From Pseudoalteromonas tunicata (lineage in GTDB: Bacteria; Pseudomonadota; Gammaproteobacteria; Enterobacterales; Alteromonadaceae), in assembly GCF_002310815.1 (NCBI RefSeq), contig NZ_CP011033.1, forward strand, positions 248,001 to 312,000: 64,000 nt of DNA. Direction: 5' to 3'. This document shows positions 6,959 to 64,000 of the stretch, one piece after another (position 1 is the first letter of the stretch; each line of letters opens with the position of its first letter). The notes under the pieces are model-generated. The model was not told where the DNA came from, did no database searches, and worked only from the letters and a program-made list of their open reading frames with translations. The position numbers were made by a program, and so were the translations under genes.

Positions 6959-9900
6959 ATGAAACAGTTCTTTTTAAAACTCAGTGAGAAAGGAATAAAG
7001 CTTACTGTAGATGATCAAGGTAAGTTATTAGTAAGGGGCCAGGTTAAGTTATTAACCCAAGACGATAAGGATTTTTTAATTAATAACAAACCAAAAATCA
7101 TTACTGCTATTAAAAATAATCTGCGCGCAAGTTCCAATAAACAGTCATCTATAGTTTCTTGTAATCTAGGTTCACGTTCATCTGTATTATCATTTTCTCA
7201 GCGACGCTTATGGTTTATTGACAAATTACAACAAGGTTCAAGCGAATATAACATTCCTGTTACTTACCATGTTAAGGGCAGCCTTAATATTGCGCTAGTT
7301 GAAAAAACATTAAATGAAATAGTTAAGCGCCACAACGTTTTGCGCACGGTTTACAAAGAGTACTTAGGTGAGCCACAGCAAGAAGTGTTGATGGATACGA
7401 ACGTAACCATTTCCTGTAAAATCTTTAAAAGCGCTGAGGCACAATATCAAGCGTTGCAACAAGAAACTGTCAAACTATTTGATTTGAGTAAAGATGTTAT
7501 GCTGCGTGCTAGTTATCTTCAGCTAGAATGTGATCAAGCAGATAACGGTATTTTGATTTTTAATGTGCATCATATCGCCGCTGATGGCTGGTCGATGGAT
7601 GTATTAACTCGAGAATTTTTAGCTCTTTATCAAGCCTTTGAACAAGGCCATCCGTCTCCTCTTGCGGATTTACCAGTACAATATATGGACTTTGCTGATT
7701 GGCAACAAAAGAAATTCATCGAGTATGGACTGCAAGATCAGATTACATATTGGCAGCGTCAATTGCATCAAATACCTACGCTACATCAAATACCGCTAGA
7801 TCACGAAAGGCCAATGGAAAAGCAGTTTCAAGGTGATTTAGTTACGACAATACTTGATAAATACACTGCGGAAAAACTACTTCAAATCGCAAAAAAATAT
7901 CAGCTAACGCCCTTTATGCTGCTTCACGGTGCATTGGCATTGGTACTGAGCCGCCATAGTGGGAGTGATGATATTGTGATTGGTAGTCCGGTCGCAAATC
8001 GTCAAGAAGCAGTATTGGAGTCATTGATTGGCTTTTTTGTAAATACTCTTGTTTTGAGAGTAAATACTGACCATTGCACTTTGAACGATTATTTTAAGCA
8101 TATTAGGCAAGTGCATTTAGAGGCACAAAGCAATCAGGATGTACCATTTGAACAGTTAGTTGAAGCATTGAATGTACCAAGAAGTAATACTCACAGCCCA
8201 CTGTTCCAAATTTTATTAACAACTAATAATGAGTTTGATGTCGATAACAATTCTATAGAAGAGCTTAAATTGGGTAGTGCTAGTTTACAGCCAATGCATG
8301 AAACATCTCTGACGACGAAGTTCGATCTTGATATTCATATGGCATTAAATGATGAAGGTGTTTCGACGGCGTGGACATATGATGTTTCTTTGTTTAACAA
8401 AGCACACATAGAACAATTGAATCAACATTTATTAAATGTTTTGAAGTCGTTAGCTGATATGGCTGATTCGATGTTTGATATCCCAGAAGAAACATCTCTT
8501 TCAACAGTAAACATGTTTAGTTCACAAGAAGAAACGTTAGCAAATGCGCTTGCTAAGGGACCAAAAATTATCAGTGATTTCTCATCAATGCACGCCATGT
8601 TTGAGTATCAGGCAAGTATTAATCCACATCATGTCGCATTAAAATTTGAAAATAATGAGTTAACATTTCAGGCGTTAAATGAAAAAGCGGATATTATCGC
8701 TGATATTTTGATTGCTCGTTATAAAGTGACTAAAGGTCAGCCAATTGGTTTGTATGGCGAACGTTCGCAGGCAATGATTTGTGGGGTCATCGCGATATTA
8801 AAAGCGGGAGCTGTCTATGTGGCTATGGATGTAAATGCGCCATCGGATAGATTAAACCACATTATTGCCGAGTTAAATTTGTCACTCGTATTATGTAATC
8901 AGCAAATTGATATCCCTTCGAGTTTTTCGAGTTTGACTGTAGTGAGCCTAGATGAACTCACCAATGATAAGGTAGAGATTGGGAGCCCTGTGCGACCAGA
9001 CATTGGAGAGGACGATGCTGCTTATATCTTATATACGTCAGGGTCGACTGGACGTCCAAAAGGAGTCTGTCAAAAACACGGTACCTTAGTGAATTTAGTA
9101 AGTCATCAGGCGAAAATTGACGGAATTACGCAAGCATATAATACACTGCAATTTACGCCATTAACTTTTGATGTATCGGCACAGGAGTTGGCAACCAGCT
9201 GGTTGACAGGAAGTTGTTTAACGTTAATTTCCCAAAAACAAAAAGATCAGTTAGAAAAACTGGCTCAGTTGTTATATCAGTTAAATATCGAGCGCTTATT
9301 TGTCCCTCCAGCTGTGTTTGATTTAATCGCAGAACATGTGAATACCTCAACGAGTAAATTACCCTGTTTAAGGGAAGTATTTGTTGCAGGTGATGTGTTA
9401 AAAATGACAACTAATATTCAGCGATTTATGGCTTCTCACCCGCAATGTGCACTTTATAATCATTACGGCCCGACAGAAACTCATGTTGCAACAACCTACC
9501 GAGTATTCCCTGAGCAGTTAGGAGATATGAGTATTGGGCGTGCTATCGCTAATACTGCATGTTATGTGCTAGATACTCGATTACTCCCTGTGCCAATTGG
9601 CTGCGTAGGAGAATTATTTGTTTCAGGCCCCGGTGTTGCTTTAGGTTATGTCAATAACTCTGAATTGACCGCTGAAAGTTTTATACATCATGAATTATAT
9701 AACGAAGTAATTTATAAGACTGGTGATCTTGTTCGTTACAACCGAGATGGCACACTTCACTTTATTGGCCGAGCTGATAACCAAATTAAAATTCGAGGCT
9801 TTAGAATTGAACTGGGTGAAGTTACCTTCGCAATTGAGGCGCAACCAGACATCGACTCAGCGGTTGTAGTGGTCAACGAATTAGCAGGCAATAAACAATT

Positions 9901-12900: not shown

Positions 12901-13627
12901 TGATTTGTTTGATCATCTTGACAGTGAGTTGCTTTATAAAACTGGTGATTTAGCCAAAGTATTACCAGATGGCAGTATTGAGTTTGTCGGACGTCTTGAT
13001 GCACAAGTAAAAATACGTGGTTTTAGAATCGAACTCAGTGAAATCGAAGCGCAACTTAATCAATGTGTTGAACTGGATTCTGCGCTGGTATTAGTTAAAG
13101 AGGCTAAAAATGGCACTAAATTTTTGGTGGCTTATGTCCATCCAAAAGATTTATCACATAGTCATTTTGAATTAACCACGGCATTACAGACGCAGCTCTT
13201 TGGTAATCTACCTGATTATATGATACCGACTTCTTTTGTGGTGGTTGAACGTTGGCCATTGACACCAAATGGTAAGGTGGACAAGAAAGCGCTACCAGAT
13301 TTAGCTCAAAGTTTGGCACAGACGGTTTATATCGCGCCACAAACAGCTACTGAACATACCTTGATTGAGTTGTGGTCTAGGTTATTGGATTTGGCATACG
13401 AGGATATTGGTTGTCATGCCAAATTCTTTGAAATGGGTGGCAATTCAATTCTCGTAACCAGACTCGAAACTTTGATCCGCAGTACATTTTCGGTTGATTT
13501 TGCTATTAAAGACTTATTTTCCCTAACAATGTTAAAGGATCAAGCATTGCATATTGATTATTTGCTTAGTCGTTCAGTTAGCATGATAGCAGATACCGAG
13601 GAAGAGCTTGAAGAAATGGACTGGTGA
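6959..13627 (+). CDS. NRPS, two modules: dock-C-A-T-C-A-T
   Basis: A 2222-residue synthetase adding two residues. Residues 1-60 form a TubC-type N-terminal docking domain, so it expects a chain from another protein. C1 (about 72-500) has HHIAADGWS near 203 and looks like an L-accepting (LCL) domain. A1 (from about 540) has YILYTSGSTGRPKG near 690; its code reads D-V-Q-F-F-A-H-V-A-K, closest to Pro codes such as DVQFIAHVVK. T1 is FFELGGHSLLS (about 1084). C2 has HHIASDGWS (about 1281). A2 (from about 1611) reads DAWTIAAVCK, one change from the GrsA Phe code. T2 is FFEMGGNSIL (about 2155), with Asn where the other carriers have His. The acidic tail TEEELEEMDW may be a docking tail. A1 contains the CLTCET palindrome insert. 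A 167-bp gap separates it from the next gene. Confidence 0.93.
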   Translation: MKQFFLKLSEKGIKLTVDDQGKLLVRGQVKLLTQDDKDFLINNKPKIITAIKNNLRASSNKQSSIVSCNLGSRSSVLSFSQRRLWFIDKLQQGSSEYNIPVTYHVKGSLNIALVEKTLNEIVKRHNVLRTVYKEYLGEPQQEVLMDTNVTISCKIFKSAEAQYQALQQETVKLFDLSKDVMLRASYLQLECDQADNGILIFNVHHIAADGWSMDVLTREFLALYQAFEQGHPSPLADLPVQYMDFADWQQKKFIEYGLQDQITYWQRQLHQIPTLHQIPLDHERPMEKQFQGDLVTTILDKYTAEKLLQIAKKYQLTPFMLLHGALALVLSRHSGSDDIVIGSPVANRQEAVLESLIGFFVNTLVLRVNTDHCTLNDYFKHIRQVHLEAQSNQDVPFEQLVEALNVPRSNTHSPLFQILLTTNNEFDVDNNSIEELKLGSASLQPMHETSLTTKFDLDIHMALNDEGVSTAWTYDVSLFNKAHIEQLNQHLLNVLKSLADMADSMFDIPEETSLSTVNMFSSQEETLANALAKGPKIISDFSSMHAMFEYQASINPHHVALKFENNELTFQALNEKADIIADILIARYKVTKGQPIGLYGERSQAMICGVIAILKAGAVYVAMDVNAPSDRLNHIIAELNLSLVLCNQQIDIPSSFSSLTVVSLDELTNDKVEIGSPVRPDIGEDDAAYILYTSGSTGRPKGVCQKHGTLVNLVSHQAKIDGITQAYNTLQFTPLTFDVSAQELATSWLTGSCLTLISQKQKDQLEKLAQLLYQLNIERLFVPPAVFDLIAEHVNTSTSKLPCLREVFVAGDVLKMTTNIQRFMASHPQCALYNHYGPTETHVATTYRVFPEQLGDMSIGRAIANTACYVLDTRLLPVPIGCVGELFVSGPGVALGYVNNSELTAESFIHHELYNEVIYKTGDLVRYNRDGTLHFIGRADNQIKIRGFRIELGEVTFAIEAQPDIDSAVVVVNELAGNKQLVAYVRPCLTCETEESKQILIATIKVQLTDTLASYMIPSAFIVMDEWPLTHNGKIDRRALPPSTFCQQNGDFLAPETKVEHQLVEIWSHLLNIEQGKISTQADFFELGGHSLLSVRLVSEIRSRLNIEIAVKDIFTSSTIKQLASVIEQSDCTMVRPKILPISRDQSQFDLSFAQQRLWFIDHFQGGSAQYNMPMAFTIDGVFDLAIAEQALSVIVARHEVLRTIYREDVDGPKQCILPAQPFKIKRLDLGHLCAAQFQQIVEQQLLEDAQTPFELSTDLMLRSTYLSLSDTHAVLMLNMHHIASDGWSITRLKYEFFTLYHAFIEGKPNPLAQLEIQYADFAQWQRNWLQGAVLEQQLDYWQRQLHDVPSVHALPLDSVRPAEKQYLGAMVMSRVSSPITQQLCQLATDNQMTPFMLLHGALALTLSRYSNTSDIVIGTPVANRMQSEVEPLIGFFVNILALRVNTEQPSLLAYLAHVRATHLDAQNHQDLPFEQLVDALKISRASGIAPLCQLMVSFNSELANQDNIASTLPNLELTPLMTDACVAKFDLEVEFSLSDYGLQINWIYDQSLFTDSHIEELSQHLNLLLERLIDSDVAQQLPGVINALPNELINYLVNTLNDNRSEYDRTLCIHEVFELQVRLNPKHIALVYQQQQLSYEQLNSKANQLAHYLLEHCIIKPDTLVGICLDRSLEMIIATLAVLKAGGAYVPLDPSYPEARLKYMLEDSAIVTILASKMSILGVDISAYHVINIDGLICAEDPLFSQYSDKNIATESLGLSAKSLAYEIYTSGSTGQPKGVLLEHQGIVNLAKNQFDAFNIESSSKILHFASMSFDAGTWEYAMALLNGATLVIADKDQRISTKAIEQLLYDAQISHITLPPAFLAMMSFRDDLSLQALIVAGEACEQELVDLWSAQYNFYNAYGPTEASVCASYQKLYPRAQLSIGKPLHNVSLYVLDKFMALVPPGVIGELHIGGDGLARGYHLQPELTAEKFIPNPFYDLFDHLDSELLYKTGDLAKVLPDGSIEFVGRLDAQVKIRGFRIELSEIEAQLNQCVELDSALVLVKEAKNGTKFLVAYVHPKDLSHSHFELTTALQTQLFGNLPDYMIPTSFVVVERWPLTPNGKVDKKALPDLAQSLAQTVYIAPQTATEHTLIELWSRLLDLAYEDIGCHAKFFEMGGNSILVTRLETLIRSTFSVDFAIKDLFSLTMLKDQALHIDYLLSRSVSMIADTEEELEEMDW
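9920..9937. repeat. In-frame 18-bp palindrome (copy 1)
   Basis: TGTCTCACATGTGAGACA is a perfect palindrome. It encodes exactly six residues, CLTCET, in a variable loop of the A domain between the LVAYV strand and the motif before the NGKIDRR lysine motif. It is preceded by CCT in all three copies. Confidence 0.85.
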
Positions 13628-13794: not shown

Positions 13795-16700
13795 ATGGAA
13801 AATATCAAACAACTACTGGTTGAGCTTGAACGAGCGGGGATCAGGCTATACCTCGATAGCGGGACGTTAAAATCTAAGGCGAAAAGTGGCGCTATTACAG
13901 CCGAGATTGCTGCGAAAATCAAAAAAAATAAAGCAGCCATCGTAGATACACTCGCGCAGCTCACTCAGGTACATACTGTCAGTCAAGTAATACCAAGAGC
14001 CGATCAAACAAGTTATCCAATTTCTTTTGCCCAGCAACGATTGTTTACTTTAGATAAACTTAAAGGTGGGTCGGCTGAGTACCATATGCCAATGGCATTT
14101 AAGATGTCTGGTGATATTGAGTTTTCCATCTTGGAACGAGTCTTTTGCGAGATCATTACCCGGCACCAAGTTCTGCGATCCGTATTTCATTTGAGCGAAG
14201 CGCAATTAGTACAGCATTTACTTGATGCGCAGGATTTTACCATTAAGTATGATCAGCTTGATACATGTGACGAACAACAGCAGACGCTACAAATAGCCAA
14301 CTTTATTGCGCAAGAATCAGAGCAGATATTTGACTTGGAACAGGACTTTATGATCAAGGTGAGTTATCTCACTTTGCCTCAGGGAACAACAAAACAAGGG
14401 GTCTTGTTTATCAATTTGCACCACATTGCGACAGATGGCTGGTCAATGGAGATACTGTTACGGGAGTTTTTTGCTTTATATCAAGCTTATAGTAATGATA
14501 AGAGTAATCCGCTAGGTGAATTACCAATTCAATACAGTGATTTTGCAAAGTGGCAAAGAGATTGGCTAAAGGATGAGGTACTTGAGTCGCAACTTACCTA
14601 TTGGCAACAGCAGTTGAATGATTTACCCGCAGTACATAGTCTGCCACTGGATTATCCAAGAGCTGAAATTAAAGCATACGATGGAGCATTAGTTAGTCGT
14701 CAATTATCGTCGGATATGTGCGCTAAATTACTAGTGCTTGCTCAAAAGTTATCTTTGACTCCGTTTATGTTGGTACATGGTGCTTTGGCATTAGTTCTCT
14801 CACGCAACAGTAATCAGCATGATATCGTCATTGGTACGCCTGTTGCGAATCGAAGACAATTGGAACTTGAGTCGCTTATTGGTTTCTTTGTTAATACGTT
14901 ATTGTTGAGACTTAATACTGAAAACCAGCCGTTAAGCCATTTTTTTGCACAGCTTAGACAGGTTCATTTGGATGCACAATCACATCAGGATTTACCATTT
15001 GAAAAGCTTGTAGAGGTGTTAAAAGTGCCTCGCAGTACGGCTTATAGTCCGCTATTCCAAATTATGCTAACCACTAATTCTGAATATGGCACTCGCAATT
15101 TAGCTACCGAACTTGCTGGAGTAACAATTTCACCACTTTATAATGAAAAAATACTTACGAAGTTCGACCTGGATATTAATGCGACTCTCAGTATGCAGGG
15201 TGGGATAATTGAATGGACGTATGACTTGGCGTTATTTTCTCAAACGCATATCGAATTATTGGCTGACCATTTACAGACTGTATTGAGTTTTTTAGCTGAT
15301 TGGGATGAAAATCAACACTGTACTACAACTTCTATTCCAATGCTTACGGATAAAGAATGTACTCAACTTAATACTTATAATGCACATCAATTGCACTATG
15401 AAAAATCTTTATGTATTCATGAGTTATTTGAAACTCAAGCCAGCGCGCACCCCGAACGCATTGCACTAGAGTGTGCAGGACAAGTTTTAACGTATGAAGC
15501 GCTAAATACTAAGGCGAACCAGCTTGCCCATTATTTGCGATCTGAGCACAATATTGGGCCCGAGAGTTCAGTTGGTTTATGTGTCGAGCGCTCACTTGAT
15601 ATGATTATCGCTATGCTGGCAATTTTGAAAGCTGGTGGCGCTTATGTACCTCTAGACCCCAATTACCCAGCGACACGTTTAGCCTACTTAATAAATGATG
15701 CTCGTTTGTCTGTGGTTTTAAGCCAGCAAGATGTGGTAGAAAAAGTTCCGTTATCTCAAGCTACACTAGTATTACTTAATGGCTTACTTGATGAATCAAA
15801 CAGTCCCTTTTCACTTTATCCAAACAGTAATTTGAACCGAGCCGAAACAGGTATCAATGAAACAAATTTGGCCTATCTTATTTATACATCAGGTTCAACA
15901 GGTAACCCAAAAGGTGTCATGATTGAGCACCGTAATACAGTTGCAATGCTGCATTGGGCGAAACAAGCCTTTAATGACCATGAGTTGGAAAAAGTATTAG
16001 CTTCAACGTCGTTGAACTTTGATCTTTCAGTCTTTGAGATTTTCTTGCCAATCTGTTTTGGTTTTCAGTGCGTGATAGTGAAAAATGCATTGGCTTTGAC
16101 TGAGCATTCATTGGATGTCAGTATGATTAATACAGTTCCTTCAGCTATGAAAGCACTGCTTGAGGTGGGAGCACTGCCCGAGAGTCTTAAAGTGGTTAAT
16201 TTGGCTGGTGAACCATTAACGGCGCAACAAGTTAATCAAATTTTCGCTATTCTCCCTGATGTTGCGGTTTGCAACCTCTACGGTCCCTCAGAAGACACAA
16301 CATATTCAACCTATGCTCGATTCACTTCACATCTAAATCGGGTACCAGATATTGGTAAAGTGATAGCGAATAGTCAGGCATATATTCTTGGTAATGCACA
16401 ACAATTACTGCCAATCGGCACGGTAGGTGAATTGTATCTGGGAGGTTCGGGTGTGGCTCGTGGTTATTTGAATCTCCCAGAATTGACTGCTGAACGTTTT
16501 ATTAATAATCCTTATTTTGAACCCAACGGCGTAAACTCAAGTCCTCGATTATATCGAACGGGTGATTTGGTACGTTATCGTAATGACGGTAGTATCGAAT
16601 TTATTGGTCGTATTGATGATCAAGTTAAAGTTCGGGGTTTTAGAATTGAATTAGGAGAAATAGAACACGCTCTTAATCAATTGTCGGAAATTGCAACTTC

Positions 16701-28049: not shown

Positions 28050-28060
28050 ATTAATTGACG

Positions 28061-46000: not shown

Positions 46001-46543
46001 GGTTCTAAGCATCTACTCGCTTATGTTCAATTGTATGATAAAAGCGCAGATGAAAATAATACTGCACAAGCAATCATTAATATCAAAAAGCAAGTAGCAG
46101 CTCAGTTACCCGATTATATGATGCCGAGTAATTTTGTTGAAGTTGAACAATGGCCATTAACCAGTAACGGAAAAATAGATAAACGTGCATTGCCTGCTGT
46201 CGATTTAAGTGGTGAAGAAGAGTACGTTGCGGCTACGACTGATACAGAACATAGATTAGTGACCATTTGGGCTGAACTTCTGAATCTGCCTGAAGAAAAA
46301 ATTAGTGTAAAAGCAAACTTTTTTACACTTGGAGGGCACTCTTTACTCGTGAGTCGATTGGTTCGAGCAATTACATCGGATAGTAAGATAAATATAGAAC
46401 ACATTGAGATGAGTGATATTTTTTCAGCTCAGTCACTTGTCGAACTGGCAGAGAAAATTGATTTCATGCGCCTAAAACAGGCTAACAGACAAGTTGTGGA
46501 CAATATCTGTGACCAAAATTTAGTTGAGGAAGGTGAGATTTAA
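43040..46543 (+). CDS. Single-module NRPS: dock-C-A-T
   Basis: A 1167-residue synthetase adding one residue. Residues 1-60 are a TubC-type docking domain (starting MIAQLIQSAADQGVYLYV). The C domain (from about 72, CQLSFTQQRFWLLEQ) is LCL-like with HHIASDGWS near 210, so the preceding Ala-type residue should stay L. The A domain (from about 547; YAIYTSGSTGQPKG near 700) reads DAWTIGAICK, one change from the GrsA Phe code at position 301 (Ala to Gly), which may widen the pocket for a larger aromatic residue. T is FFTLGGHSLLV (about 1094). The C-terminal tail LVEEGEI is acidic and may dock to the next protein. Its start overlaps the previous stop by one base, and its own stop overlaps the next start in the same way. 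Confidence 0.93.
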   Translation: MIAQLIQSAADQGVYLYVKENTLHFDLTVAEFPLQLKQQIVDHKAEIIDFLSQFVANLDNKIQPIRGHYPQGCQLSFTQQRFWLLEQMQSGSSQYNMPVALNVVGTLELNLVEKVLTTIISRHQILRTIYLQSDDQVLQLVKDDVEFALGYEDLSRIAKPQREAELSQCLLAEASRSFDLSKDLAIRAKYLQLSESEQDPQRGVLLLTLHHIASDGWSMEVLVNEFVTLYRAYTLNQANPLPELDLQYADFAVWQRKELQGAELEKQKEYWMRTLDAAPILQGLPLQHSRPTIKQTIGASIKGNLNTAISERLSEIAKQFNLSPFMLLHAVLAIVLSRHSNQSDIVIGTPVANRVEAAFNSMIGCFVNTLALRLNTCQATIGDYLAHVRQVHLNAQVNQDIPFEQLIDALNLPRSSAYTPLVQIMLTTNDKFAVQHEQHSLLDLPNLSLTPLEGGHPAVKFDLEIALNITEQGLETSWSYDVALFEQGFVEQLSEHFNNALLALTQIADEQLEAMPLNRLSILGEKLEEYLVNGLNNHSQDYPNHLCIQQIFEQQVLRTPDNIAVKLGKNSLTYKELNERANQLAHFLIREYQITPDTFIGLCVERSLEMVIGTLAILKAGAAYVPLDPAYPRQRLTYMMSNSGVKIILSTHFIIKQLDLTDYSSVCIDGLSYAQTVKTFANYPKHNLGDLVSGLSSNHLAYAIYTSGSTGQPKGVLLEHKGIVNVAFNHRDYLEVDHTSKVLHFASMSFDAGTWEYIMALLNGATLIIADSIERLSPESISQLLYAEAITHVTLPPAFLAMMEYRDDLALKALIVGGEACDQELVNLWVRQYRMINAYGPTEISICATWAELKPNSKVTIGKPLKNTSAFILDNSLALLSPGVVGELYISGVGLARGYHQLPRQTAERFVLNPYFIEDKNKCVTQYLYKTGDLVRYLPEGELEYLGRIDEQVKIRGFRIEISEIEGVIVACPEVNAVVVTVISSATGSKHLLAYVQLYDKSADENNTAQAIINIKKQVAAQLPDYMMPSNFVEVEQWPLTSNGKIDKRALPAVDLSGEEEYVAATTDTEHRLVTIWAELLNLPEEKISVKANFFTLGGHSLLVSRLVRAITSDSKINIEHIEMSDIFSAQSLVELAEKIDFMRLKQANRQVVDNICDQNLVEEGEI

Positions 46544-55500: not shown

Positions 55501-56580
55501 TTGCGTCGATGTCAGTCACTGAAACAGGTTTTTTGTAGTGGTGAAGCGTTACAAATCAGCCATGTTGAACAATTTAGACATCAGTTACCAGAGGTTGGAT
55601 TACATAACTTATATGGCCCAACAGAGGCAGCCATTGATGTGAGCTACTGGGATTGCTCGCAGCCACTGGGCAGCAGTGTGCCGATAGGAAAACCAATACA
55701 AAACATCCAGCTCTATATATTGGATGACGAATTAAATCTATTACCACAAGGAGCCTGTGGCGAGTTACATATTGGTGGAGACGGCTTAGCCCGCGGCTAT
55801 TTAAATCGGCCAGAGCTGACACAAGAGCGGTTTATCGCCAACCCATTTTATCAAGCAGAAGAAGCCAACAGCAGTGAGCGCTTATATAAAACAGGAGATT
55901 TGGTGCGCTACAAAGAGGATGGCAACATAGAATACATGGGGCGTTTAGACCATCAAGTGAAGATAAGAGGCTTTCGCATAGAGTTGGGCGAAATAGAATA
56001 TCAGGTCGCACAACATAAGCAAATAGACTCAGCGCTGGTTGTTGCCCAAGCGGATAAAGCAGGCAATCAACGGCTGATAGCCTATGGCAAAACCGTGCAA
56101 GCAGAAGCGTCAAAAGAGGACGTTATTGCCTCATTAAAAGCTGAGTTAGCTGCGGTATTACCAGAATACATGGTGCCAGCGAACGTTATTTTGGTCTCAG
56201 AATGGCCATTGACGCCAAATGGTAAAATAGACCGCAGAGGACTGCCCTCGGTGGATGAGAGTATCGATAGCACAGCGTATGTCGCGCCACACGGTGAGAC
56301 AGAAGTGATGCTAGCAGAAGTATGGGCTCATGTATTAAAACTTGATGTTGCACGAATAAGCCGTAACGCCAATTTCTTTGAACTTGGCGGGCATTCATTA
56401 TTAGTGATCAAGGCGATGAAAGAAATCGATTTACGATTCTCTATTCAGTTAAATATCAAAGACTTGTTTAAATATACTTCAGTTTCAGACCTAGCAAAGC
56501 AGATAGATTTCATGTTGGCAAAACAGGAATTGAAAGCAAAATTAAAGCAATCAGACAATGTAGAAAGGATCGTGTTTTAA
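46543..56580 (+). CDS. Three-module NRPS: dock-C-A-T-E/C-A-T-C-A-T
   Basis: A 3345-residue synthetase. It has a TubC-type docking domain at 1-58 and an LCL-like C1 with HHIVSDGWS (about 208). A1 (from about 542) reads DVWHFSLIDK, Ser. T1 is FFELGGHSLMI (about 1094). The E/C-type domain (about 1149-1600) has IHCATEGTDPY and HHILLDH (about 1324), predicting D-Ser. A2 (from about 1636; YVIYTSGSTGQPKG near 1789) reads DFWNVGMVHK, a clear Thr code. T2 is FFELGGHSLLL (about 2187). C2 is LCL-like with HHIACDGWS (about 2391), so Thr stays L. A3 (from about 2726) is Ser again and nearly identical to A1. T3 is FFELGGHSLLV (about 3279). The two Ser regions form a direct repeat 6,552 bp apart. The ribosome binding site AGGAAGGTGA precedes the start, which overlaps the previous stop. 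Confidence 0.94.
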   Translation: MNVHQAFELAVSQGVYLYVEEGKLKFKAAKGSMSDILKSALQQNKEQLIELLSNQHVIPNTSKSIPKLNLVEAELSFSQQRLWFLEQLRGPSAEYNIPLALDVQGSLDISVVEAAFNYIINRHAILRSCYFEAEDGVRQRTREQVEFKVEVIDLIDSQNKDARLEQYIAQDASTAFNLSEDLLFRVTYIQVKKSEAGSESHAVLLLNMHHIVSDGWSMEVLIGEFVTAYRALLQGEAFELPDLKLQYTDYAHWQRTTLTQQSLAEQIDHWQQVLADVPALHGITPDFDRPNEKCLQGDTIGASLPPSVAQSLLDLAKNMQLTPFMLVHAALALVLARHSNCHDIVIGTPIANRNLPELEALIGYFANTLILRVDTKQTDISQYLQHIKKVNQQAQAHQDVPFEQLVERLNVPRSSAHSPIFQIMLTTNSDYGVRDTRIGFDGLTINQRQVNTVITKFDLEIEVVISDQGVKIEWNYDCALFKASRISLFTQHLQAVLQHMAQLSPQHLSQSLSALPMLNDAERQQQLVDWNNTALSYPKELCIHELFEAQVQHAPERTAVWFEEQCLSYGELNAKANQLAHYLRAEHGVGPDSLVGLCTERSLEMVIGIWGILKAGGAYVPLDPELPSARLQYLVSDTQANVVLSTQALKEHITLGEAQVVYLDGLGSQVTHPFSEYSEENINLKEIGLTSQHLAYMIYTSGSTGQPKGVLLAHQALHNRIDWMDREYGCDSLDVILQKTPYSFDVSVWEFIWPMLKGAKLVVAKPQGHKDPSYLTELIVATGVTKLHFVPSMLGVMLAHGDLRRCQSLKQVFCSGEALQISHVEQFRHQLPEVGLHNLYGPTEAAIDVSYWDCSQPLGSSVPIGKPIQNIQLYILDDELNLLPQGACGELHIGGDGLARGYLNRPELTQERFIANPFYQAEEGNSSERLYKTGDLVRYKEDGNIEYMGRLDHQVKIRGFRIELGEIEYQVAQHKQIDSALVVAQADKAGNQRLIAYAKTVQADASKEDVIASLKAELAAVLPEYMVPANVILVSEWPLTPNGKIDRRGLPSVDESIDSTAYVAPHGETELMLVEICAELLRINKLEISIMANFFELGGHSLMIMDLVSRLKKRGFSTSVQSLFAAKVLKEMTLELVPNKEIQSDALLPENLIPAACTYLTPQMVNLASVSQQELDKISTLVPGGAQNIQDIYPLAPLQESIFLIHCATEGTDPYVTIITLEFATEAAIEQFVVRLNKVIKRHDILRTMISWRGCPQPLQVVLRDVTLIPSWLPFSGEKNIDQLLSDYVEHGEHRMDLEQAPLLQLELAYDAAANKYFAVLKEHHILLDHTSVEMIMHEMALQEHEYAQLPSTLPYRNFIAQTLARSSQLNISDFFSEKLGDIDTPCQPFGLTNQTNAHSQINELNLELTASQSQSIRALMKQQGSSPAAFFHLAWAMVIAACSQTRDVVFGTVLSGRMSDLDGIEQMMGMMINTLPLRINLGDYCAADLIRQVNQELLELMPFEQVSLTQAQACSGVSGQTSLFSAIFNYRHSRLGTKGAEGEAQAISAKERTNYPFNLCVDDWGQLFSCNLQIDHSVSIEAVAEYVSCAINQLLDALSSNSAAPVAHLSVLPIKEQQALLAPVCNDYVADNSQLCIHELFELQVELVPNNTAVVFQNQAISYQTLNEQANRLAHYLVQNYDIKPDTLIGLCLNRSVNMMVGILAILKAGGAYVPLDPTYPQERLNFIFDDASLDLVLTQSCLCNTLTLDDNKLLCLDSAQLESALVCYPTSNISKDSLALTAAHLAYVIYTSGSTGQPKGVLQSHENVRRLFYVTQPDFNFTAQDCWCVFHSYAFDFSVWEMWGALFYGGKLLVPTLDEVKDTRLFIELCHKEKLTILNQTPSAFKQLTEYLVSIGQALPTLRTIVFGGEGLVESHLALWWQNFADHSAELINMYGITETTVHVTYKVLGQGSRITIGKPLRDQHILLLDESLNLVPKGCAGEIYVAGAGLARGYLNREALSAERFIANPYYHEAGAWLGERLYKAGDLARYDAEGELHYLGRLDDQVKIRGHRIELGEVESRITQLEMVDSALVLALPGVDAQLQLVAYVKVIDTFKEGDWQAQLKQTLSQQLQAYMLPSVIVPITQWPLTNNGKVDKKALPAIETGTDHTNFEAPTTATEQTVTEIWSELLNIAVDRIGINTNFFELGGHSLLLMKLLAGIRKRLNRELTVKDIFSAATVKQQAAKIDQQIHANLRPQIMPQVRNKGELLPLSYAQQRLWFIDQLNGESPEYNMPVAFDIVGHLDLDVVEEAINQLLERHEVLRTVFLNQSEGPKQQVIDHFSFKLTLFDLSEVEGIKKQQLLSDTLKKEALQPFNLECDLMLRASYVLLDYASDNAQQHGVLMFNMHHIACDGWSLELMSNEFLRLYQSITTENPEPLAPITIQYADYAAWQREWLSDELLTAQLDYWREQLADVPPVHSLRLDKLRPEEKQYNAASYRSRLPKEVSAQLQQLAEIANVTPFMLVHSALAYVLSKHSNNHDVVIGTPVANRAQAEVAALVGYFANTLVLRVNTRHAELQEYLNHVKSVHIGAQSNQDVPFEQLVDALKTPRSTAYSPIFQIMLTMNSDFALTDKRVCELAGLQFTARTPETTTTKFDLEVNIELSDVGVNVTWTYDKVLFNETHVAMFAQHLQAVLQHMAQLSPQHLSQSLSALPMLNDAERQQQLVDWNNTALSYPKELCIHELFEAQVQHAPERTAVWFEEQCLSYGELNAKANQLAHYLRAEHGVGPDSLVGLCTERSLEMVIGIWGILKAGGAYVPLDPELPSARLQYLVSDTQANVVLSTQALKEHITLGEAQVVYLDGLGSQVTHPFSEYSEENINLKEIGLTSQHLAYMIYTSGSTGQPKGVLLAHQALHNRIDWMDREYGCDSLDVILQKTPYSFDVSVWEFIWPMLKGAKLVVAKPQGHKDPSYLTELIVATGVTKLHFVPSMLGVMLAHGDLRRCQSLKQVFCSGEALQISHVEQFRHQLPEVGLHNLYGPTEAAIDVSYWDCSQPLGSSVPIGKPIQNIQLYILDDELNLLPQGACGELHIGGDGLARGYLNRPELTQERFIANPFYQAEEANSSERLYKTGDLVRYKEDGNIEYMGRLDHQVKIRGFRIELGEIEYQVAQHKQIDSALVVAQADKAGNQRLIAYGKTVQAEASKEDVIASLKAELAAVLPEYMVPANVILVSEWPLTPNGKIDRRGLPSVDESIDSTAYVAPHGETEVMLAEVWAHVLKLDVARISRNANFFELGGHSLLVIKAMKEIDLRFSIQLNIKDLFKYTSVSDLAKQIDFMLAKQELKAKLKQSDNVERIVF
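48011..49752 (+). repeat. Ser adenylation-module repeat, copy 2
   Basis: Identity with copy 3 begins earlier than with the others, at CCCAGCATCTACAAGC inside the end of the C domain, and ends at the A-T linker (HGETE), before the T domain. Offset to copy 3 is 6,552 bp. Confidence 0.9.
54563..56398 (+). repeat. Ser adenylation-module repeat, copy 3
   Basis: Shares its 5' extension with copy 2 and its 3' part (into the T domain through GGHS) with copies 1 and 4. It is thus a composite of the two repeat types. Confidence 0.9.
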
Positions 56581-59500
56581 TGAAAGCGGAACAAATAATA
56601 AAGCAACTACAAGATAAATTTATCTTAGTGAGCGTCTCGGATGGTTCGCTTGTTGTCGAAGCTGAAAGTGGGGCGGTTACGGCAGAAATCGCACAACTCA
56701 TTAGAAGTAATAAAGATCAATTAGTTACTTATTTGAGTGAAAGCAAAGAAGAGCCAAAGCGTCAAACGGTCACAAAAAGAGCGGCTGAGTATAATGACAC
56801 CGCCCCGCTGTCTTTCTCACAGCGGCGATTGTGGTTTATTGCCCAGCTTCGAAAAGAGTCGGCAGAATATAACATGCCAGCATTTCTTGAAGTTAATGGA
56901 TTGCTTGATTTGGATTTAGTTGAACGTGTATGCCGCGAGATTATTCGACGTCATGAAATATTACGTACAGTTATTATCGAAGGTGAGTTCGAGGCGCAGC
57001 AGCATATTTGTGCCGATTTCAATTTTTCTTTACGCCGAATTGATCTCAGTATGGTTAAAGCTGAGCAGCAATTAGAGCAGCTTGAAACTCTTATTGTTGA
57101 TGAACTGAATACACCTTTTAATTTATCCAAAGATCTGATGATCCGAGTCAGTTATGTTTTATTAGAGCAAAGTGCAATGGGGTCACAGCGTGGTGTCTTA
57201 CTGTTTAATATGCATCATATTGCATCTGACGGTTGGTCAATCGAATTGCTCAGTCGAGAGTTTATGCTTTTATATCAAGCATTCAGTGATAATAGCGTGA
57301 CTCCACTGCCTGATCTTAGCATTCAATATGCAGACTATGCTGTTTGGCAAAAAGAGTGGCTACAGGATAATTTACTTGAAGAACAAATGACGTATTGGCA
57401 GCATCAGCTCAAAGGTATTCCTACTGTTCATAGTTTGCCACTCAAACAAGCTAGAGCGATTGAAAAACAAAGTGATGCAGACTTTTTGTCTTATCGTTTG
57501 CCTGAAACAGTCAGTTCACAAATAACGTTCACTGCCCAGCAATATAAGTTATCGGCCTTTATGTTTTTTCATGCGGTGTTGGGATTACTATTATCACGCC
57601 ATAGTAATAGTCATGATATTGTAGTGGGCACACCGGTAGCAAATAGACTCCAGCAAGAACTTGAGCCTTTAATTGGCTTTTTTGTTAATAATTTAGTACT
57701 GCGAGTTGATACTCAACATGCAACGATTGGCGATTATTTGACTCACGTCGCAATAGTACATCGGGATGCTCAAGCTAATCAAGATATACCGTTTGAGCAA
57801 CTCGTTGAACGTCTGAATGTTGAGCGCAATTTATCCCATGATCCGATCTTTCAGATCATGTTATCAATGAACACGGATTTTGGTGTTTCACAACAACAAG
57901 ACGCCCAACTAGCTGGATTATCGTTTAAAAAATACGACCGTGAGGTGGTTTCTCTTAAATTCGATATTGATATTGATATTAATTATAGTGATTCAGAAAT
58001 TGAGCTGAAATGGACTTACGATACATCGCTTTTTGAACATAACTATATTGAAACGCTAAATCAAAACTTTTGTCATTTATTACAAGAGTTTATGCTTTAT
58101 TCTGCCGCACCTGAGACTAAACTTAGTCAACTGTCATTACTCACTCAAGCAGAGCAAGATGCTTTACTGGCGATGCAGTGTGGGCCGAAACGAGAACTGG
58201 CCTGGTGCTGCGCGCATCATCTGATAGCGCAGCAGGTTAAAAAATCACTCGGACGGGTGGCAGTGACCAATGGTGAGCAATTCCTAAGTTATCGTATGTT
58301 AGACGAACGTGCTAATCAGCTGGCCCATTATCTGCGCGAGCACCATAACGTTGGCCCCGATACCTTGGTTGGTCTGTGTGTTGAGCGCTCGCTTGAGATG
58401 ATGGTGGGGGTGCTGGCTATCTTAAAGGCAGGTGGGGCTTATGTGCCGCTAGACCCTGCTTATCCTAAAGAGCGTCTGGCGTTTATGGTGCAGGATACGG
58501 GCCTGACTGTGGTGCTGACACAACAAAAAGTGGCCACGTTACTGGATGGTTTTAACGTGACTGCGGTGCCTATTTGTACCCTACAGCATTTTAATGATTA
58601 CGCGACTGATGCCCCCGATGTACCGGGACTGACTCCTGCGAATTTGGCGTATGTGATGTACACCTCTGGCTCAACGGGTACGCCAAAAGGAGTGATGGTT
58701 ACGCATCGTAACTTAGTTAATTTTGCCGCCAACTGTGAGCTGCGTTACGACATCACCGAGGCTGATAATGTCTTGCAATTTTCAACGATGAACTTTGACA
58801 TTTTTGTTGAAGAATGGCTGGCGTCCCTAAGCCGCGGTGCGAGTTTGGTACTGCGTCACGAAGCGGTCTCGTTGAGTCGCGAAGCCTTTATTGATTTTTG
58901 TCAGCAGCATGCCATCAGTGTGGCCAATTTGCCAACCGCATTTTGGCATCAGTTGGCACTCAGTGAAGAAGAGTTGGCCCGTCTGTCACTGCGCTTGGTG
59001 ATTGTTGGCGGCGAAGCGTTGGATAAAAAATCGGTGGCAAGTTTAAAACCAGGTTTTTGTTTGCTCAATTCCTATGGCCCAACTGAAACCACTGTCACCG
59101 CCTCAGGCTTTGCGATTGACAGTGATTACGCCGAGTCTCGTGCGGTGCCAATTGGTCGTGCGAATGCCAATACTGCTTGTTTGGTTTTATCAGAGCAACT
59201 GACACTGTGTCCGCCGGGCGTAATGGGCGAGCTTTACATCAGTGGTCAGGGGTTGGCCAAAGGGTATTTGAATCAACCGGCACTCACCGCAGAGCGTTTT
59301 ATCGATAACCCTTATTATGACAAGAGCAACCTCGCACTCAGTGAGCGCTTGTATAAAACCGGCGATTGGGTCCGTTTGTCTGGCGATGGTGAGTTAGTCT
59401 TTATGGGGCGCATCGATGACCAAGTAAAAATACGCGGTTTTCGGGTTGAATTAGGTGAAATTGTTAATCAGTTAATGGCTGACGAAACCGTCGAGCTTGC

Positions 59501-62500
59501 GGTGGTGCTTGCTGAGCCTGGGCATGATGGAGGTAAAACGTTACGAGCTTATGTTCAACCACAGCAGAGCCTTGATGAAGCACAGCACAGCCAGTGGCTG
59601 CAATCGTTGCAACAATCATTAAGCGCGAGCTTACCCAATTATATGGTGCCAGCCACCTTCAGCGTGGTGGTGCAATGGCCGGTCACCACCAATGGTAAAG
59701 TAGATAAACAGGCCTTGCTCGCACTGCCAGCAGTCGTTTTATTGCAGGAATATCAAGCGCCGCAAAGCGCGCAGGAGCACTGGCTGGTTGAATTTTGTAG
59801 TCAGCATTTAGCGTTACCAACCAACCAAATTAGTGTCACCGCGAACTTTTTTGCGTTGGGAGGGCACTCATTATTGATAATGCAATTGGTGAGTCAGCTG
59901 AGAAAAAGTGAGCTTCAAGCAGACGTCCAAGCGTTATTCAAAGCGCATTCGTTGCAAGACATGGCACGGCAGATACAGCCATTGAACACAGCTGAATTTA
60001 TCAATGTGCCCGCCAATGGGATCCCAGCAGATTGCCAACACATCACACCCGAGATGCTCACCTTAACGCAGCTCAGTGAGGCAGAGATTGCGGATATTGC
60101 GGCAGTTATTCCCGGAGGAATGGCCAATATTCAAGATATTTACCCCCTAGCACCACTGCAAGAAGGGGTCTTATTCATTCACACCATGAGCGAGCAATAC
60201 GACCCATATGTCACCAGCAGCACGTTTGAGTTTGATGATGACGCGAGTTTGGCGAGCTTTTTAGCCGCGTTGCAACAACTGATTGCCAGACATGATGTAC
60301 TGCGTACCGCCATCGTGTGGCGTAACCGGACAACCGCGCTGCAAGTGGTTCAGCGAGAAGCCCAACTAGCAGTGAGTCAACTAGCGTTTAACGACAGTGA
60401 GGATGTGTACCAAGCATTTATAGACTTTGTAGCGCAGGCCGATTATTGGATTGATTTAGAAACTGCGCCGTTACTGCAGCTGTCGGTATGTGAAGATACG
60501 GTACGAGGCAAGCATTATGCACTCTTGAGCGAGCATCACCTGATATCAGACCATGTATCGTTAGAGGTTTTAGTCGAAGAGCTGAGCGTACTGTTACATA
60601 CTCCACACGCAGAGCTTGCACCGCCCGTTCCTTATCGCGAGTTTGTAGGACGTACCTTACAGCGCAGTGGCGAACTCGATACCGCCGCGTTTTTCAGCCA
60701 ACAACTTGGTGAGGTGAGTGAGCCGACCCTGCCTTATGGGTTAAGCGATGTACTGAATGATGGTAAAGCGGTCACGAGTGTCAAAGTCAGATTGGACAAA
60801 GCCCAAGCGCAACAGGTACGGCAGTTAATGCGTGAGCACAACAGCAGCCCAGCAGCGTTGTTTCACTTAGTATGGGCCAAAGTGTTATCGGTGTGCAGCG
60901 GTCAGTCACAAGTGGTGTTTGGCACGGTTTTATCAGGACGCATGAATGGGCTCCCCGGCATAGAACGCATGATGGGGATGTTAATCAACACCTTGCCATT
61001 AAAAGTGGACTTAGGCAGTCACAGAGCCGCAACGTTATTAAGCCAACTGAACAGCGACTTACAAGACTTAGTACCGTATGAGCAAGTTTCATTAGCAGAA
61101 GCACAACGTTACAGCGGCGTCAGTGGACAACTGCCGTTATTCAGCGCGATGTTAAATTACCGTCACTCAGCAATAGCAGAGCAAGGCGCAGAAGCACAGG
61201 CGGGATTTCGGGTCCTTGAAAGCCAAGAGCGAACCAACTACCCGTTTAACTTATTAGTGGATGATTTTGGTGATGGCTTTGCATTTGAAGTGCAAATAGA
61301 TACACGGGTCCCAGCGCAGCAGATAGCGGCGTATGTACAGGTTACACTGACAAACGTACTCGATTTATTAGCAAAAGACTCAATACAATCCGTGCACAGT
61401 GTGTGTGTATTATCAGAGGCCGAGCGCCAGCAGCAGCTGGTAGATTGGAACAATACTGCGCTGAGCTACCCTAAAGAATTGTGCATTCATGAATTATTTG
61501 AAGCGCAAGTGCAACACGCGCCAGAGCGCACCGCGGTATGGTTTGAAGAGCAGTGTTTAAGTTATGGCGAACTTAATGCCAAAGCCAACCAGTTGGCACA
61601 TTATTTACGCGCTGAGCATGGTGTTGGGCCTGACAGTTTAGTGGGCTTATGCACTGAGCGCTCATTGGAAATGGTCATCGGGATTTGGGGGATTTTAAAA
61701 GCCGGCGGCGCTTATGTACCATTGGACCCCGAGTTACCGTCTGCTCGATTGCAGTATTTGGTCAGTGATACCCAGGCCAATGTGGTATTAAGTACCCAAG
61801 CCCTTAAAGAGCACATCACGTTAGGCGAAGCACAAGTGGTCTATCTTGATGGCTTGGGGAGTCAGGTTACACATTCGTTTAGCGAGTATAGCGAAGAGAA
61901 TATTAATCTAAAGGAAATAGGGTTAACGTCACAGCACCTTGCCTACATGATTTACACCTCAGGATCTACAGGCCAACCAAAAGGCGTATTGTTGGCCCAT
62001 CAAGCCTTGCACAACCGTATTGATTGGATGGACCGAGAATATGGCTGTGACAACCTAGATGTTATTTTACAAAAGACCCCGTACAGTTTTGATGTGTCGG
62101 TCTGGGAATTTATTTGGCCCATGCTAAAGGGCGCAAAACTAGTGGTAGCCAAACCGCAAGGACACAAAGACCCAAGTTACCTAACCGAACTGATAGTTGC
62201 CACCGGCGTGACCAAACTGCATTTTGTGCCTTCCATGTTAGGCGTGATGTTAGCCCATGGCGACTTGCGTCGATGTCAGTCACTGAAACAGGTTTTTTGT
62301 AGTGGTGAAGCGTTACAAATCAGCCATGTTGAACAATTTAGACATCAGTTACCAGAGGTTGGATTACATAACTTATATGGCCCAACAGAGGCAGCTATTG
62401 ATGTGAGCTACTGGGATTGCTCGCAGCCACTGGGCAGCAGTGTGCCGATAGGAAAACCAATACAAAACATCCAGCTCCATATATTGGATGACGAATTAAA

Positions 62501-64000
62501 TCTATTACCACAAGGAGCCTGTGGCGAGTTACATATTGGTGGAGACGGCTTAGCCCGCGGCTATTTAAATCGGCCAGAGCTGACACAAGAGCGGTTTATC
62601 GCCAACCCATTTTATCAAGCAGAAGAAGCCAACAGCAGTGAGCGCTTATATAAAACAGGAGATTTGGTGCGCTACAAAGAGGATGGCAACATAGAATACA
62701 TGGGGCGTTTAGACCATCAAGTGAAGATAAGAGGCTTTCGCATAGAGTTGGGCGAAATAGAATATCAGGTCGCACAACATAAGCAAATAGACTCAGCGCT
62801 GGTTGTTGCCCAAGCGGATAAAGCAGGCAATCAACGGCTGATAGCCTATGGCAAAACCGTGCAAGCAGACGCCCCAAAAGAGGATGTTATTACCTCATTA
62901 AAAGCTGAGTTAGCGGCGGTATTACCAGAATACATGGTGCCAGCGAACGTTATTTTGGTCTCAGAATGGCCATTGACGCCAAATGGTAAAATAGACCGCA
63001 GAGGACTGCCCTCGGTGGATGAGAGTATCGATAGCACAGCGTATGTCGCGCCACATGGTGAGACAGAAGTGATGCTAGCAGAAGTATGGGCTCATGTATT
63101 AAAACTTGATGTTGCACGAATAAGCCGTAACGCTAATTTCTTTGAACTTGGCGGGCATTCGCTTCTGATAATGCAGTTGATTACCAGCCTCAAACAGCAG
63201 GGTTATCAATGTCATGCTCAGGCAATGTTTAAAGCTGTAAATTTACAAGCAATGGCCGATCAATTGGATTCAAATACCGATCCGATATGCGACTTTATTG
63301 TGCCAGATTACGTTATACCAGAAAATGTCTTACAACTTAGCCCAGATATGTTTCCTTTAGTTCAGCTGGAACAAGATAAACTGGACGAAATTGTAGCAAA
63401 AGTACCTGGCGGTGCGTCAAATATTCAGGATATTTACCCATTAGCACCTTTGCAAGAAGGAGTGCTCTTTATTCATACTATTAATAAAGAGCATGATCCA
63501 TATGTAAGTACCATGGCTTTTGAGTTGGCTAATGAACAATTGTTGATGCGATTACGAGCGGACTTAACTTTTGTAATCGAACGTCATGATGTTCTGAGAA
63601 CCGCGATTTTATGGCGTGGTCGTGCTCAAGCGCTGCAGGTCGTGCAGCGTCGAGCATACTTGCCAGTGACAAGATTAGATTTATCGGGCTCTGATATAAA
63701 ATCGGCATTTGAAACCTATGTTGCACAAGGGGCGCACGGTTTTGAGCTTGAAACAGCCCCGTTAATTGAGCTCGTTGTGACACCCACGGATGAGCAGGGG
63801 CGGATTTTTGCCTTGTTAAAATTCCACCATCTGATTACTGACCACGTTTCGTTGGATATTCTGATGTCTGAACTCAGTGCACCGGATTTGACGCAGTTGC
63901 CTCCTCCTTTACCTTATCGTGAATTCATCGCCCGCTCATTGCATAACACCGCGAACTTGAATGTAGCTGAGTTCTTTAGTGAAAAACTCGGTGACATTGA
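56580..64000 (+). CDS. NRPS, incomplete at window end: dock-C-A-T-E/C-A-T-E/C...
   Basis: An open frame of at least 2473 codons that runs off the right edge. The start overlaps the previous stop (TAATG) and is preceded by GAAAGGAT. Residues 1-58 are a TubC-type docking domain (MKAEQIIKQLQDKF). C1 is LCL-like with HHIASDGWS near 208. A1 (from about 528; YVMYTSGSTGTPKG near 691) is nearly identical to the third A domain of the starter synthetase, but its code reads DIENIGSVTK because codon 58926-58928 is AAT (Asn) instead of AGT (Ser). T1 is FFALGGHSLLI (about 1089). E/C1 has IHTMSEQYDPY and HHLISDH (about 1319). A2 (from about 1635) is a Ser-type copy. T2 is FFELGGHSLLI (about 2187). E/C2 (from about 2241) has IHTINKEHDPY and reaches HHLITDH. 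Most of this gene after 58161 is built from repeated blocks. Confidence 0.92.
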   Translation, partial: MKAEQIIKQLQDKFILVSVSDGSLVVEAESGAVTAEIAQLIRSNKDQLVTYLSESKEEPKRQTVTKRAAEYNDTAPLSFSQRRLWFIAQLRKESAEYNMPAFLEVNGLLDLDLVERVCREIIRRHEILRTVIIEGEFEAQQHICADFNFSLRRIDLSMVKAEQQLEQLETLIVDELNTPFNLSKDLMIRVSYVLLEQSAMGSQRGVLLFNMHHIASDGWSIELLSREFMLLYQAFSDNSVTPLPDLSIQYADYAVWQKEWLQDNLLEEQMTYWQHQLKGIPTVHSLPLKQARAIEKQSDADFLSYRLPETVSSQITFTAQQYKLSAFMFFHAVLGLLLSRHSNSHDIVVGTPVANRLQQELEPLIGFFVNNLVLRVDTQHATIGDYLTHVAIVHRDAQANQDIPFEQLVERLNVERNLSHDPIFQIMLSMNTDFGVSQQQDAQLAGLSFKKYDREVVSLKFDIDIDINYSDSEIELKWTYDTSLFEHNYIETLNQNFCHLLQEFMLYSAAPETKLSQLSLLTQAEQDALLAMQCGPKRELAWCCAHHLIAQQVKKSLGRVAVTNGEQFLSYRMLDERANQLAHYLREHHNVGPDTLVGLCVERSLEMMVGVLAILKAGGAYVPLDPAYPKERLAFMVQDTGLTVVLTQQKVATLLDGFNVTAVPICTLQHFNDYATDAPDVPGLTPANLAYVMYTSGSTGTPKGVMVTHRNLVNFAANCELRYDITEADNVLQFSTMNFDIFVEEWLASLSRGASLVLRHEAVSLSREAFIDFCQQHAISVANLPTAFWHQLALSEEELARLSLRLVIVGGEALDKKSVASLKPGFCLLNSYGPTETTVTASGFAIDSDYAESRAVPIGRANANTACLVLSEQLTLCPPGVMGELYISGQGLAKGYLNQPALTAERFIDNPYYDKSNLALSERLYKTGDWVRLSGDGELVFMGRIDDQVKIRGFRVELGEIVNQLMADETVELAVVLAEPGHDGGKTLRAYVQPQQSLDEAQHSQWLQSLQQSLSASLPNYMVPATFSVVVQWPVTTNGKVDKQALLALPAVVLLQEYQAPQSAQEHWLVEFCSQHLALPTNQISVTANFFALGGHSLLIMQLVSQLRKSELQADVQALFKAHSLQDMARQIQPLNTAEFINVPANGIPADCQHITPEMLTLTQLSEAEIADIAAVIPGGMANIQDIYPLAPLQEGVLFIHTMSEQYDPYVTSSTFEFDDDASLASFLAALQQLIARHDVLRTAIVWRNRTTALQVVQREAQLAVSQLAFNDSEDVYQAFIDFVAQADYWIDLETAPLLQLSVCEDTVRGKHYALLSEHHLISDHVSLEVLVEELSVLLHTPHAELAPPVPYREFVGRTLQRSGELDTAAFFSQQLGEVSEPTLPYGLSDVLNDGKAVTSVKVRLDKAQAQQVRQLMREHNSSPAALFHLVWAKVLSVCSGQSQVVFGTVLSGRMNGLPGIERMMGMLINTLPLKVDLGSHRAATLLSQLNSDLQDLVPYEQVSLAEAQRYSGVSGQLPLFSAMLNYRHSAIAEQGAEAQAGFRVLESQERTNYPFNLLVDDFGDGFAFEVQIDTRVPAQQIAAYVQVTLTNVLDLLAKDSIQSVHSVCVLSEAERQQQLVDWNNTALSYPKELCIHELFEAQVQHAPERTAVWFEEQCLSYGELNAKANQLAHYLRAEHGVGPDSLVGLCTERSLEMVIGIWGILKAGGAYVPLDPELPSARLQYLVSDTQANVVLSTQALKEHITLGEAQVVYLDGLGSQVTHSFSEYSEENINLKEIGLTSQHLAYMIYTSGSTGQPKGVLLAHQALHNRIDWMDREYGCDNLDVILQKTPYSFDVSVWEFIWPMLKGAKLVVAKPQGHKDPSYLTELIVATGVTKLHFVPSMLGVMLAHGDLRRCQSLKQVFCSGEALQISHVEQFRHQLPEVGLHNLYGPTEAAIDVSYWDCSQPLGSSVPIGKPIQNIQLHILDDELNLLPQGACGELHIGGDGLARGYLNRPELTQERFIANPFYQAEEANSSERLYKTGDLVRYKEDGNIEYMGRLDHQVKIRGFRIELGEIEYQVAQHKQIDSALVVAQADKAGNQRLIAYGKTVQADAPKEDVITSLKAELAAVLPEYMVPANVILVSEWPLTPNGKIDRRGLPSVDESIDSTAYVAPHGETEVMLAEVWAHVLKLDVARISRNANFFELGGHSLLIMQLITSLKQQGYQCHAQAMFKAVNLQAMADQLDSNTDPICDFIVPDYVIPENVLQLSPDMFPLVQLEQDKLDEIVAKVPGGASNIQDIYPLAPLQEGVLFIHTINKEHDPYVSTMAFELANEQLLMRLRADLTFVIERHDVLRTAILWRGRAQALQVVQRRAYLPVTRLDLSGSDIKSAFETYVAQGAHGFELETAPLIELVVTPTDEQGRIFALLKFHHLITDHVSLDILMSELSAPDLTQLPPPLPYREFIARSLHNTANLNVAEFFSEKLGDI
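58161..61729 (+). repeat. Basic-residue A-T-E/C block, copy 2
   Basis: Partner of 37866-41434 at a constant 20,295 bp offset, same reading phase. Few substitutions are seen, including the Ser-to-Asn change at 58926-58928. Confidence 0.9.
61418..63161 (+). repeat. Ser adenylation-module repeat, copy 4
   Basis: Exactly 36,000 bp from copy 1 without indels. It follows directly on the basic-residue block, and the identity stops at GGHS in the T domain. Confidence 0.9.
63574..64000 (+). repeat. E/C-domain repeat, copy 2 (cut by window end)
   Basis: Nearly identical to 17492-17918 and still matching at the last base. Upstream of 63574 the two E/C domains differ clearly. Confidence 0.85.

Follow-up and report, generated by a model that had tools for sequence, protein, structure and literature searches.

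The window, the whole 64,000-nucleotide stretch of DNA analysed here, covers positions 248001-312000 of a 980475-base contig in a 4.96 Mb Pseudoalteromonas tunicata genome of two contigs; we also examined 60 kb to its right and the readable part of 20 kb to its left. Seven nonribosomal peptide synthetase (NRPS) genes run along its forward strand, which we call A (6959), B (13795), C (20547), D (29997), E (43040), F (46543) and G (56580). They are listed below with their features and neighbors (in the domain strings, C is condensation, A AMP-binding, T carrier and TE thioesterase):

5903..6118, + strand, small protein gene of about 71 amino acids upstream of gene A, with a predicted start codon within the open reading frame 5879-6118
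6959..13627, + strand, gene A, docking-C-A-T-C-A-T, modules 12-13 of the predicted line
6959..7132, + strand, docking domain of gene A, putative acceptor for the 56580 protein; below the Pfam cut-off, recognized by model and fold match
13601..13624, + strand, putative donor-type C-terminal tail of gene A, EELEEMDW
13795..20550, + strand, gene B, docking-C-A-T-C-A-T, modules 14-15
20547..28049, + strand, gene C, docking-C-A-T-C-A-T-TE, modules 16-17 and release
27345..27995, + strand, thioesterase domain of gene C, motif GHSSG
28218..29885, + strand, ABC exporter of the cyclic-peptide type, between thioesterase gene C and starter gene D
29997..43040, + strand, gene D, C(starter type)-A-T and three more C-A-T, modules 1-4, without a docking domain
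30009..31331, + strand, starter-type condensation domain of gene D, HHLIVDG
43040..46543, + strand, gene E, docking-C-A-T, module 5
46543..56580, + strand, gene F, docking and three C-A-T, modules 6-8
56580..64000, and on to 66620 beyond the window, + strand, gene G, docking and three C-A-T, modules 9-11
66594-66617, + strand, tail of gene G, DDEEVLEF, after the final T domain; no thioesterase

The repeating C-A-T units, the carrier serine and HHxxxD identify a modular type I NRPS with 17 C, 17 A and 17 T domains, in which GGHS or GGNS is intact in every T domain and HHxxxD in every C domain (17/17 each). Genes D, E, F and G overlap by one base each, and the product of G is 3346 amino acids long. 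The exporter matches TIGR01194 (cyclic peptide export) at 409.7 bits, passing the cut-off of 286.2; PRK10522 scores higher (440.4), yet stays under its own cut-off of 604. After the end of G at 66620 follow a 227-amino-acid gene with no Pfam or NCBIfam match, which looks like a lipoprotein by its N-terminus, and a ParB-like gene (68492-69556 in window coordinates, right of the window, + strand; TIGR00180, 32.6 bits, below the cut-off of 58.45). The opposite strand in this region encodes a 258-amino-acid type II thioesterase, a GGDEF protein and a histidine kinase. No MbtH match was found, and the phosphopantetheinyl transferase family (PF01648) has four matches elsewhere in the genome.

Left of the cluster, 95-5327 holds TonB-receptor-like, DUF1275 and PLP-decarboxylase genes. 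Because no counterparts were found in the examined regions of nine relatives, these genes probably lie outside the cluster proper. The small protein gene at 5903-6118 is present in all 10 clusters; it has a match in each of the nine relatives (57-72 residues aligned at 64-72%), and its differences from them fall mostly at third codon positions. An Rfam scan of 5328-7000 gave no match up to E 0.5.

Counts across the readable genome reveal one start and one end. All 17 condensation-domain matches (PF00668) lie within the seven NRPS genes, and 17 of the 25 AMP-binding matches (PF00501) lie in this cluster. PF00975 matches five times, and the only match embedded in an NRPS stands at the end of gene C. 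TubC_N has six matches, at the N-terminus of every NRPS gene but D. Neither the 57 kb beyond G nor the readable left flank yielded further NRPS domains. D is the sole start without a docking domain and C the sole end with a thioesterase, and six donor tails face six docking domains. With one start and one end, this inventory leads to a single closure, 29997>43040>46543>56580>6959>13795>20547, of 17 modules. A lacks a donor and G an acceptor, and in the readable genome neither has any free partner but the other, so that we infer the 56580-to-6959 hand-over by elimination.

Much of this had been anticipated in the original prediction, drawn from the letters of the window. It placed a docking domain at the N-terminus of 6959 with no NRPS before it, a thioesterase at the close of the third gene (20547-28049) and none in the genes downstream of 29997, and it gave 29997 a starter/EntF-like first condensation domain and no docking domain. 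Each of these points holds: no NRPS was found in the readable part of the 20 kb left flank, and 43040, 46543 and 56580, the last followed to its end at 66620, lack a thioesterase. Its first proposal, that synthesis starts at 29997 and returns to 6959-28049 for release, gains support from the absence of a second NRPS-embedded thioesterase in the readable genome; the return route is further favored by the lack of condensation domains outside the cluster, the conserved donor-type tail of G, and the docking domain and elongation-type first C domain of A. The predicted product of more than 16 residues can be refined to 17 by module count. To the right of the window, where the prediction had sought a check, G closes with a carrier domain followed by a short conserved tail of the donor type; neither a thioesterase ending the downstream genes nor, in the readable part, an NRPS just to the left was found.

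Two other candidates for release were rejected. The 258-amino-acid type II thioesterase (69734-70510, - strand), which in this genome lies 3 kb to the right of G, is the only other PF00975 match near the cluster; it was dismissed as the regular release enzyme because it was not found in the examined regions of relatives. A thioesterase with a docking domain of its own was discarded because the genome's six docking-domain matches are all on NRPS genes.

By alignment, identity and tree, the 17 C domains fall into three groups. The first domain of D stands alone: it is 16-20% identical to the other 16 and was flagged as a long branch in the tree. A second group comprises eight domains with HHIxxDGWS, including the opening C domain of each of A, B, C, E, F and G, and a third comprises eight with HH(L/I)xxDH(V/T)S (modules 2, 3, 4, 7, 10, 11, 15 and 17). 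The first C domain of A shares 41-45% identity with the seven others of its group and 17% with the starter domain of D, and by its sequence it is of the elongation type. We classify the first domain of D as a starter domain, since it is first in line, has no docking domain before it and is distinct from the elongation C domains. Its relatives in the PDB include EntF and CDA synthetase I, neither of which is the best match, and it may acylate residue 1 with a fatty acid.

Judging from their motif, the third-group domains resemble dual epimerization/condensation domains; they form one group in a tree of the 17 cluster C domains, built without outside references. The N-terminal motif of dual domains given in the available part of PMC1894796, HH[I/L]xxxxGD, occurs in 0/8 of them, and the corresponding stretch, compared by eye, reads xH[T/C]xxxxxxD in 8/8. 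Because the published motif is missing from all eight, a D-configuration of residues 1, 2, 3, 6, 9, 10, 14 and 16 is only a guess.

The docking domain of A scores 22.9 bits against Pfam TubC_N in the genome search and 17.6 bits in the protein scan, missing the cut-off of 26; that of C also falls under the cut-off in the protein scan (19.0 bits). An AlphaFold model of the A domain, aligned with the five others, has a mean pLDDT of 82.8 and runs helix-strand-strand-helix-helix, and we thus assign it the predicted α1-β1-β2-α2-α3 order of solved docking domains. Its best ten fold matches in the PDB are EpoB (three), AerJ (one), Kj12 docking entries (four) and 6cgo (two), with E-values of 0.03-0.72 and none at or below 0.001. 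6cgo is the enacyloxin condensation protein, which also carries such a docking domain. A PDB sequence search with the A domain returned 10 weak matches and no docking domain.

In the solved Kj12 complex, as described in the accessible portion of PMC6195595, binding involves just the five C-terminal donor residues, which form a strand along β2 with the terminal side chain buried, and affinity is set by two salt bridges. The six donor-type C-terminal tails of our cluster end in leucine (D and B), isoleucine (E), phenylalanine (F and G) or tryptophan (A); the hydrophobic last residue of the G tail resembles the one in that complex (PMC6195595, in the same portion). We compared the tails with those of relatives without gaps, setting the last eight residues against the 24 before. 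Identity is 6 of 8 against 13 of 24 for E, 8 of 8 against 12-14 for F, 6 of 8 against 9-11 for G (five relatives) and 5-7 of 8 against 12-15 for A. The D tail, with 7 of 8 against 19-20, shows little extra conservation over the preceding stretch, and in B a length change exaggerates the contrast between 7-8 of 8 and 3-4 of 24.

Under a salt-bridge rule that considers two positions, mapped by hand, the proposed pairing scores 7, which is the maximum and is equaled by 60 of 720 pairings. With the docking domain of A, the G tail scores 1 and does not clash, compared with 2 for each of the E, A and B tails. When pairings were ranked by net charge, using three tail lengths and two strand lengths, the proposed one was at the optimum in two of six combinations and near it in four. 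Docking chemistry therefore permits the G-to-A link without singling it out; it is elimination that does so. The relay of seven proteins, whose tails and docking domains belong to two charge classes, provides a clean natural test of docking rules.

The terminal thioesterase has an orthologue in 10 of 108 genomes of the genus (E 1e-10 or better). A collinear cousin outside the genus was sought in vain, as among 394 evenly sampled genomes of the order only this genome itself matched the thioesterase (E 1e-30 or better). Among the 108, starter-domain orthologues (66-100%) are confined to the 10 genomes with the thioesterase, and three further genomes have matches at 32-39%. As far as it could be read, the order A-B-C(TE)-exporter-D-E-F-G is kept in 10/10 clusters. 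Seven of these could be followed beyond G; in the other three the contig breaks off within D (G001 and G095) or within G (G106). None of the seven (0/7) has a thioesterase on G or a further NRPS gene within flanks of 57 kb here and 9-16 kb in the six relatives. The relatives' exporters are 79-86% identical to this one, and A, B and C are 60-72% identical. Across the five unbroken clusters (this one, G051, G052, G053 and G054), 11 of the 17 ten-letter residue codes are identical, and the codes of modules 2, 3, 5, 9, 12 and 14 vary; the six codes of A, B and C in G001 are the same as here. Frames are split in three of the 10 clusters, G007 (A), G062 (B, C and E) and G106 (C), through either sequencing error or decay. 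Among 80 exporter loci, we found the arrangement thioesterase-exporter-starter only in P. rubra S2676 (L022), in a survey that used two single-sequence thioesterase queries and flanks of at most 10 kb, so that misses are likely.

We consider it very probable that the seven genes constitute one permuted NRPS assembly line making one 17-residue lipopeptide, because the parts close into a single path, the first C domain of A is of the elongation type, gene order is conserved, thioesterase and starter domain co-occur, G has a conserved tail, the pairing reaches the maximum salt-bridge score and polymyxin offers a precedent. Two independent lines sharing one exporter, with D-E-F-G yielding 11 residues and A-B-C six, would fit the separation of the two blocks by an exporter gene, and the free-standing type II thioesterase near the right end could in principle hydrolyse the product of G. 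Yet A lacks a loading module and carries an N-terminal docking domain followed by an elongation-type C domain, G ends in a conserved tail of the donor type instead of a thioesterase, both blocks occur together in 10/10 genomes, and the type II thioesterase was not found in the examined regions of nine relatives, six of which reach past G. Terminator-like sites at 28040-30000 number 0 against a mean of 1.5 in shuffles, which is weak evidence against separate lines, and a promoter scan between C and D found 5 sites against 5.9 in shuffles. Two products with one exporter, the alternative offered in the original prediction, thus seem improbable.

We assign an equally small chance to promiscuous docking, in which the E tail would also feed A and a family of products, including an 11-residue D+E+A+B+C peptide, would arise beside the 17-mer. 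Rhabdopeptide synthetases interact stochastically via such domains, according to the available text of PMC6195595, and the E tail scores 2 with the A domain where the G tail scores 1. However, the E tail fits the domain of F equally well (2), F is its neighbor, and the one-base overlaps from D to G suggest coupled production. That A-B-C is a decaying remnant, or accepts an acyl chain from an unknown non-NRPS donor, is barely credible: although 3/10 clusters have broken frames in A, B, C or E and the docking domain of A is the weakest Pfam match, all 17 carrier motifs, all 17 HHxxxD motifs and the thioesterase GHSSG are intact here, and A, B and C are well matched in relatives (60-72%) with mostly conserved codes.

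In the single permuted line, synthesis would start on the 29997 protein, whose N-terminal C domain may acylate residue 1, and the chain would pass through 43040, 46543 and 56580. The last residues of 56580, EVLEF, would then add a strand to the β-hairpin docking domain of the 6959 protein, and the chain would move on to 13795 and 20547, where the thioesterase would free the product by cyclisation or hydrolysis. The ABC protein encoded mid-cluster is the likely exporter. Residue codes were read for all 17 modules, two of which are putatively of the Lys type. From these codes, the predicted peptide is Phe-Val-Lys-Ala-(Phe-like)-Ser-Thr-Ser-Lys-Ser-Val-Pro-Phe-Ala-Val-Val-Ser, putatively N-acylated. 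For Phe (module 1) and Thr (module 7), the codes agree at 7 of 8 positions with those tabulated in the accessible part of PMC3708778.

We found no description of the cluster or its product among the open-licence papers listed, nor in the available portions of PMC12819058, PMC13097078 and PMC6581688. A genome survey (PMC4359443, accessible part) reports 56 C domains for one P. rubra strain; if that strain has the cluster, the survey will have included it unnamed.

The layout has a close parallel in the polymyxin synthetase of Paenibacillus, whose genes lie in the order pmxA, pmxB with the thioesterase, transporters pmxC and pmxD, and pmxE with the starter, and which works non-collinearly as pmxE-pmxA-pmxB (PMC3708778, available text). 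Here, too, the starter-type gene follows the thioesterase gene and comes last, with a transporter between them. Polymyxin synthetase has 10 modules on three proteins and two separate epimerization domains (PMC3708778, same text), whereas our cluster has 17 modules on seven proteins and β-hairpin docking domains, and host and peptide are unrelated. The docking fold predicted for A, α1-β1-β2-α2-α3, is that of rhabdopeptide Kj12ABC, whose solved domains are among the fold matches of the A model. By contrast, the Kj12 proteins are single modules that act stochastically (PMC6195595, in the part available), and the seven proteins here, multi- or single-module, would each be used once. Long lipopeptide lines with several modules per protein are also found in Pseudomonas cyclic lipopeptide synthetases such as that of xantholysin (XtlA-B-C), where the synthetases are co-linear, a tandem thioesterase forms the end and the gene for initiation sits at a separate genomic location (PMC3656897, accessible part). 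Ogipeptins and alterins are likewise cyclic lipopeptides from Pseudoalteromonas, and the available text of PMC12819058 gives them a shared cationic heptapeptide ring, in contrast to the 17 modules here.

At this locus, gene order by itself would suggest two products or a wrong sequence. The starts, ends, docking domains and tails point instead to one 17-residue lipopeptide, from a cluster kept in 10/108 Pseudoalteromonas genomes. This is a sound correction to the naive gene-order reading rather than a new principle, as the arrangement is of a known kind.

The flanks bear on the origin of the permuted order. Here the genes run A-B-C-exporter-D-E-F-G-lipoprotein-ParB-like, with the ParB-like gene right of G, whereas in 9/9 relatives it lies left of A, in the same orientation and 73-77% identical. 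The lipoprotein-like gene stands right of G in all six relatives read there. Other flanking genes within 12 kb have no matches in the relatives save a 35% GGDEF match. Both placements of the ParB-like gene are rotations of one circle, and it is conceivable, if rather unlikely, that the cluster moves as a circular island and that the permuted order is a frozen cut point. If so, the line would be collinear on the circle, D-E-F-G-(lipoprotein, ParB-like)-A-B-C. A move of the ParB-like gene on its own accounts for both orders equally well.

Within the cluster, DNA of the C-to-A linkers is 95-100% alike at 25405-25715, 41110-41420, 48089-48399, 54641-54951 and 61405-61715 (modules 17, 4, 6, 8 and 10), and a sixth copy at 15346 is 60% alike. 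Other near-identical pairs are 37866/58161 (99%), 17492/63574 (99%) and 18622/34575 (94%). At the protein level, the C domains of modules 4 and 10 are 100% identical and those of 11 and 15 are 92% identical. The pattern resembles recent gene conversion that spans the two blocks. In Pseudoalteromonas sp. SMS1, a free-standing 280-amino-acid thioesterase (L099:9145-9987) has a TubC-type docking domain of its own (30.2 bits, cut-off 26) and adjoins an exporter gene; it perhaps releases its product in trans by docking.
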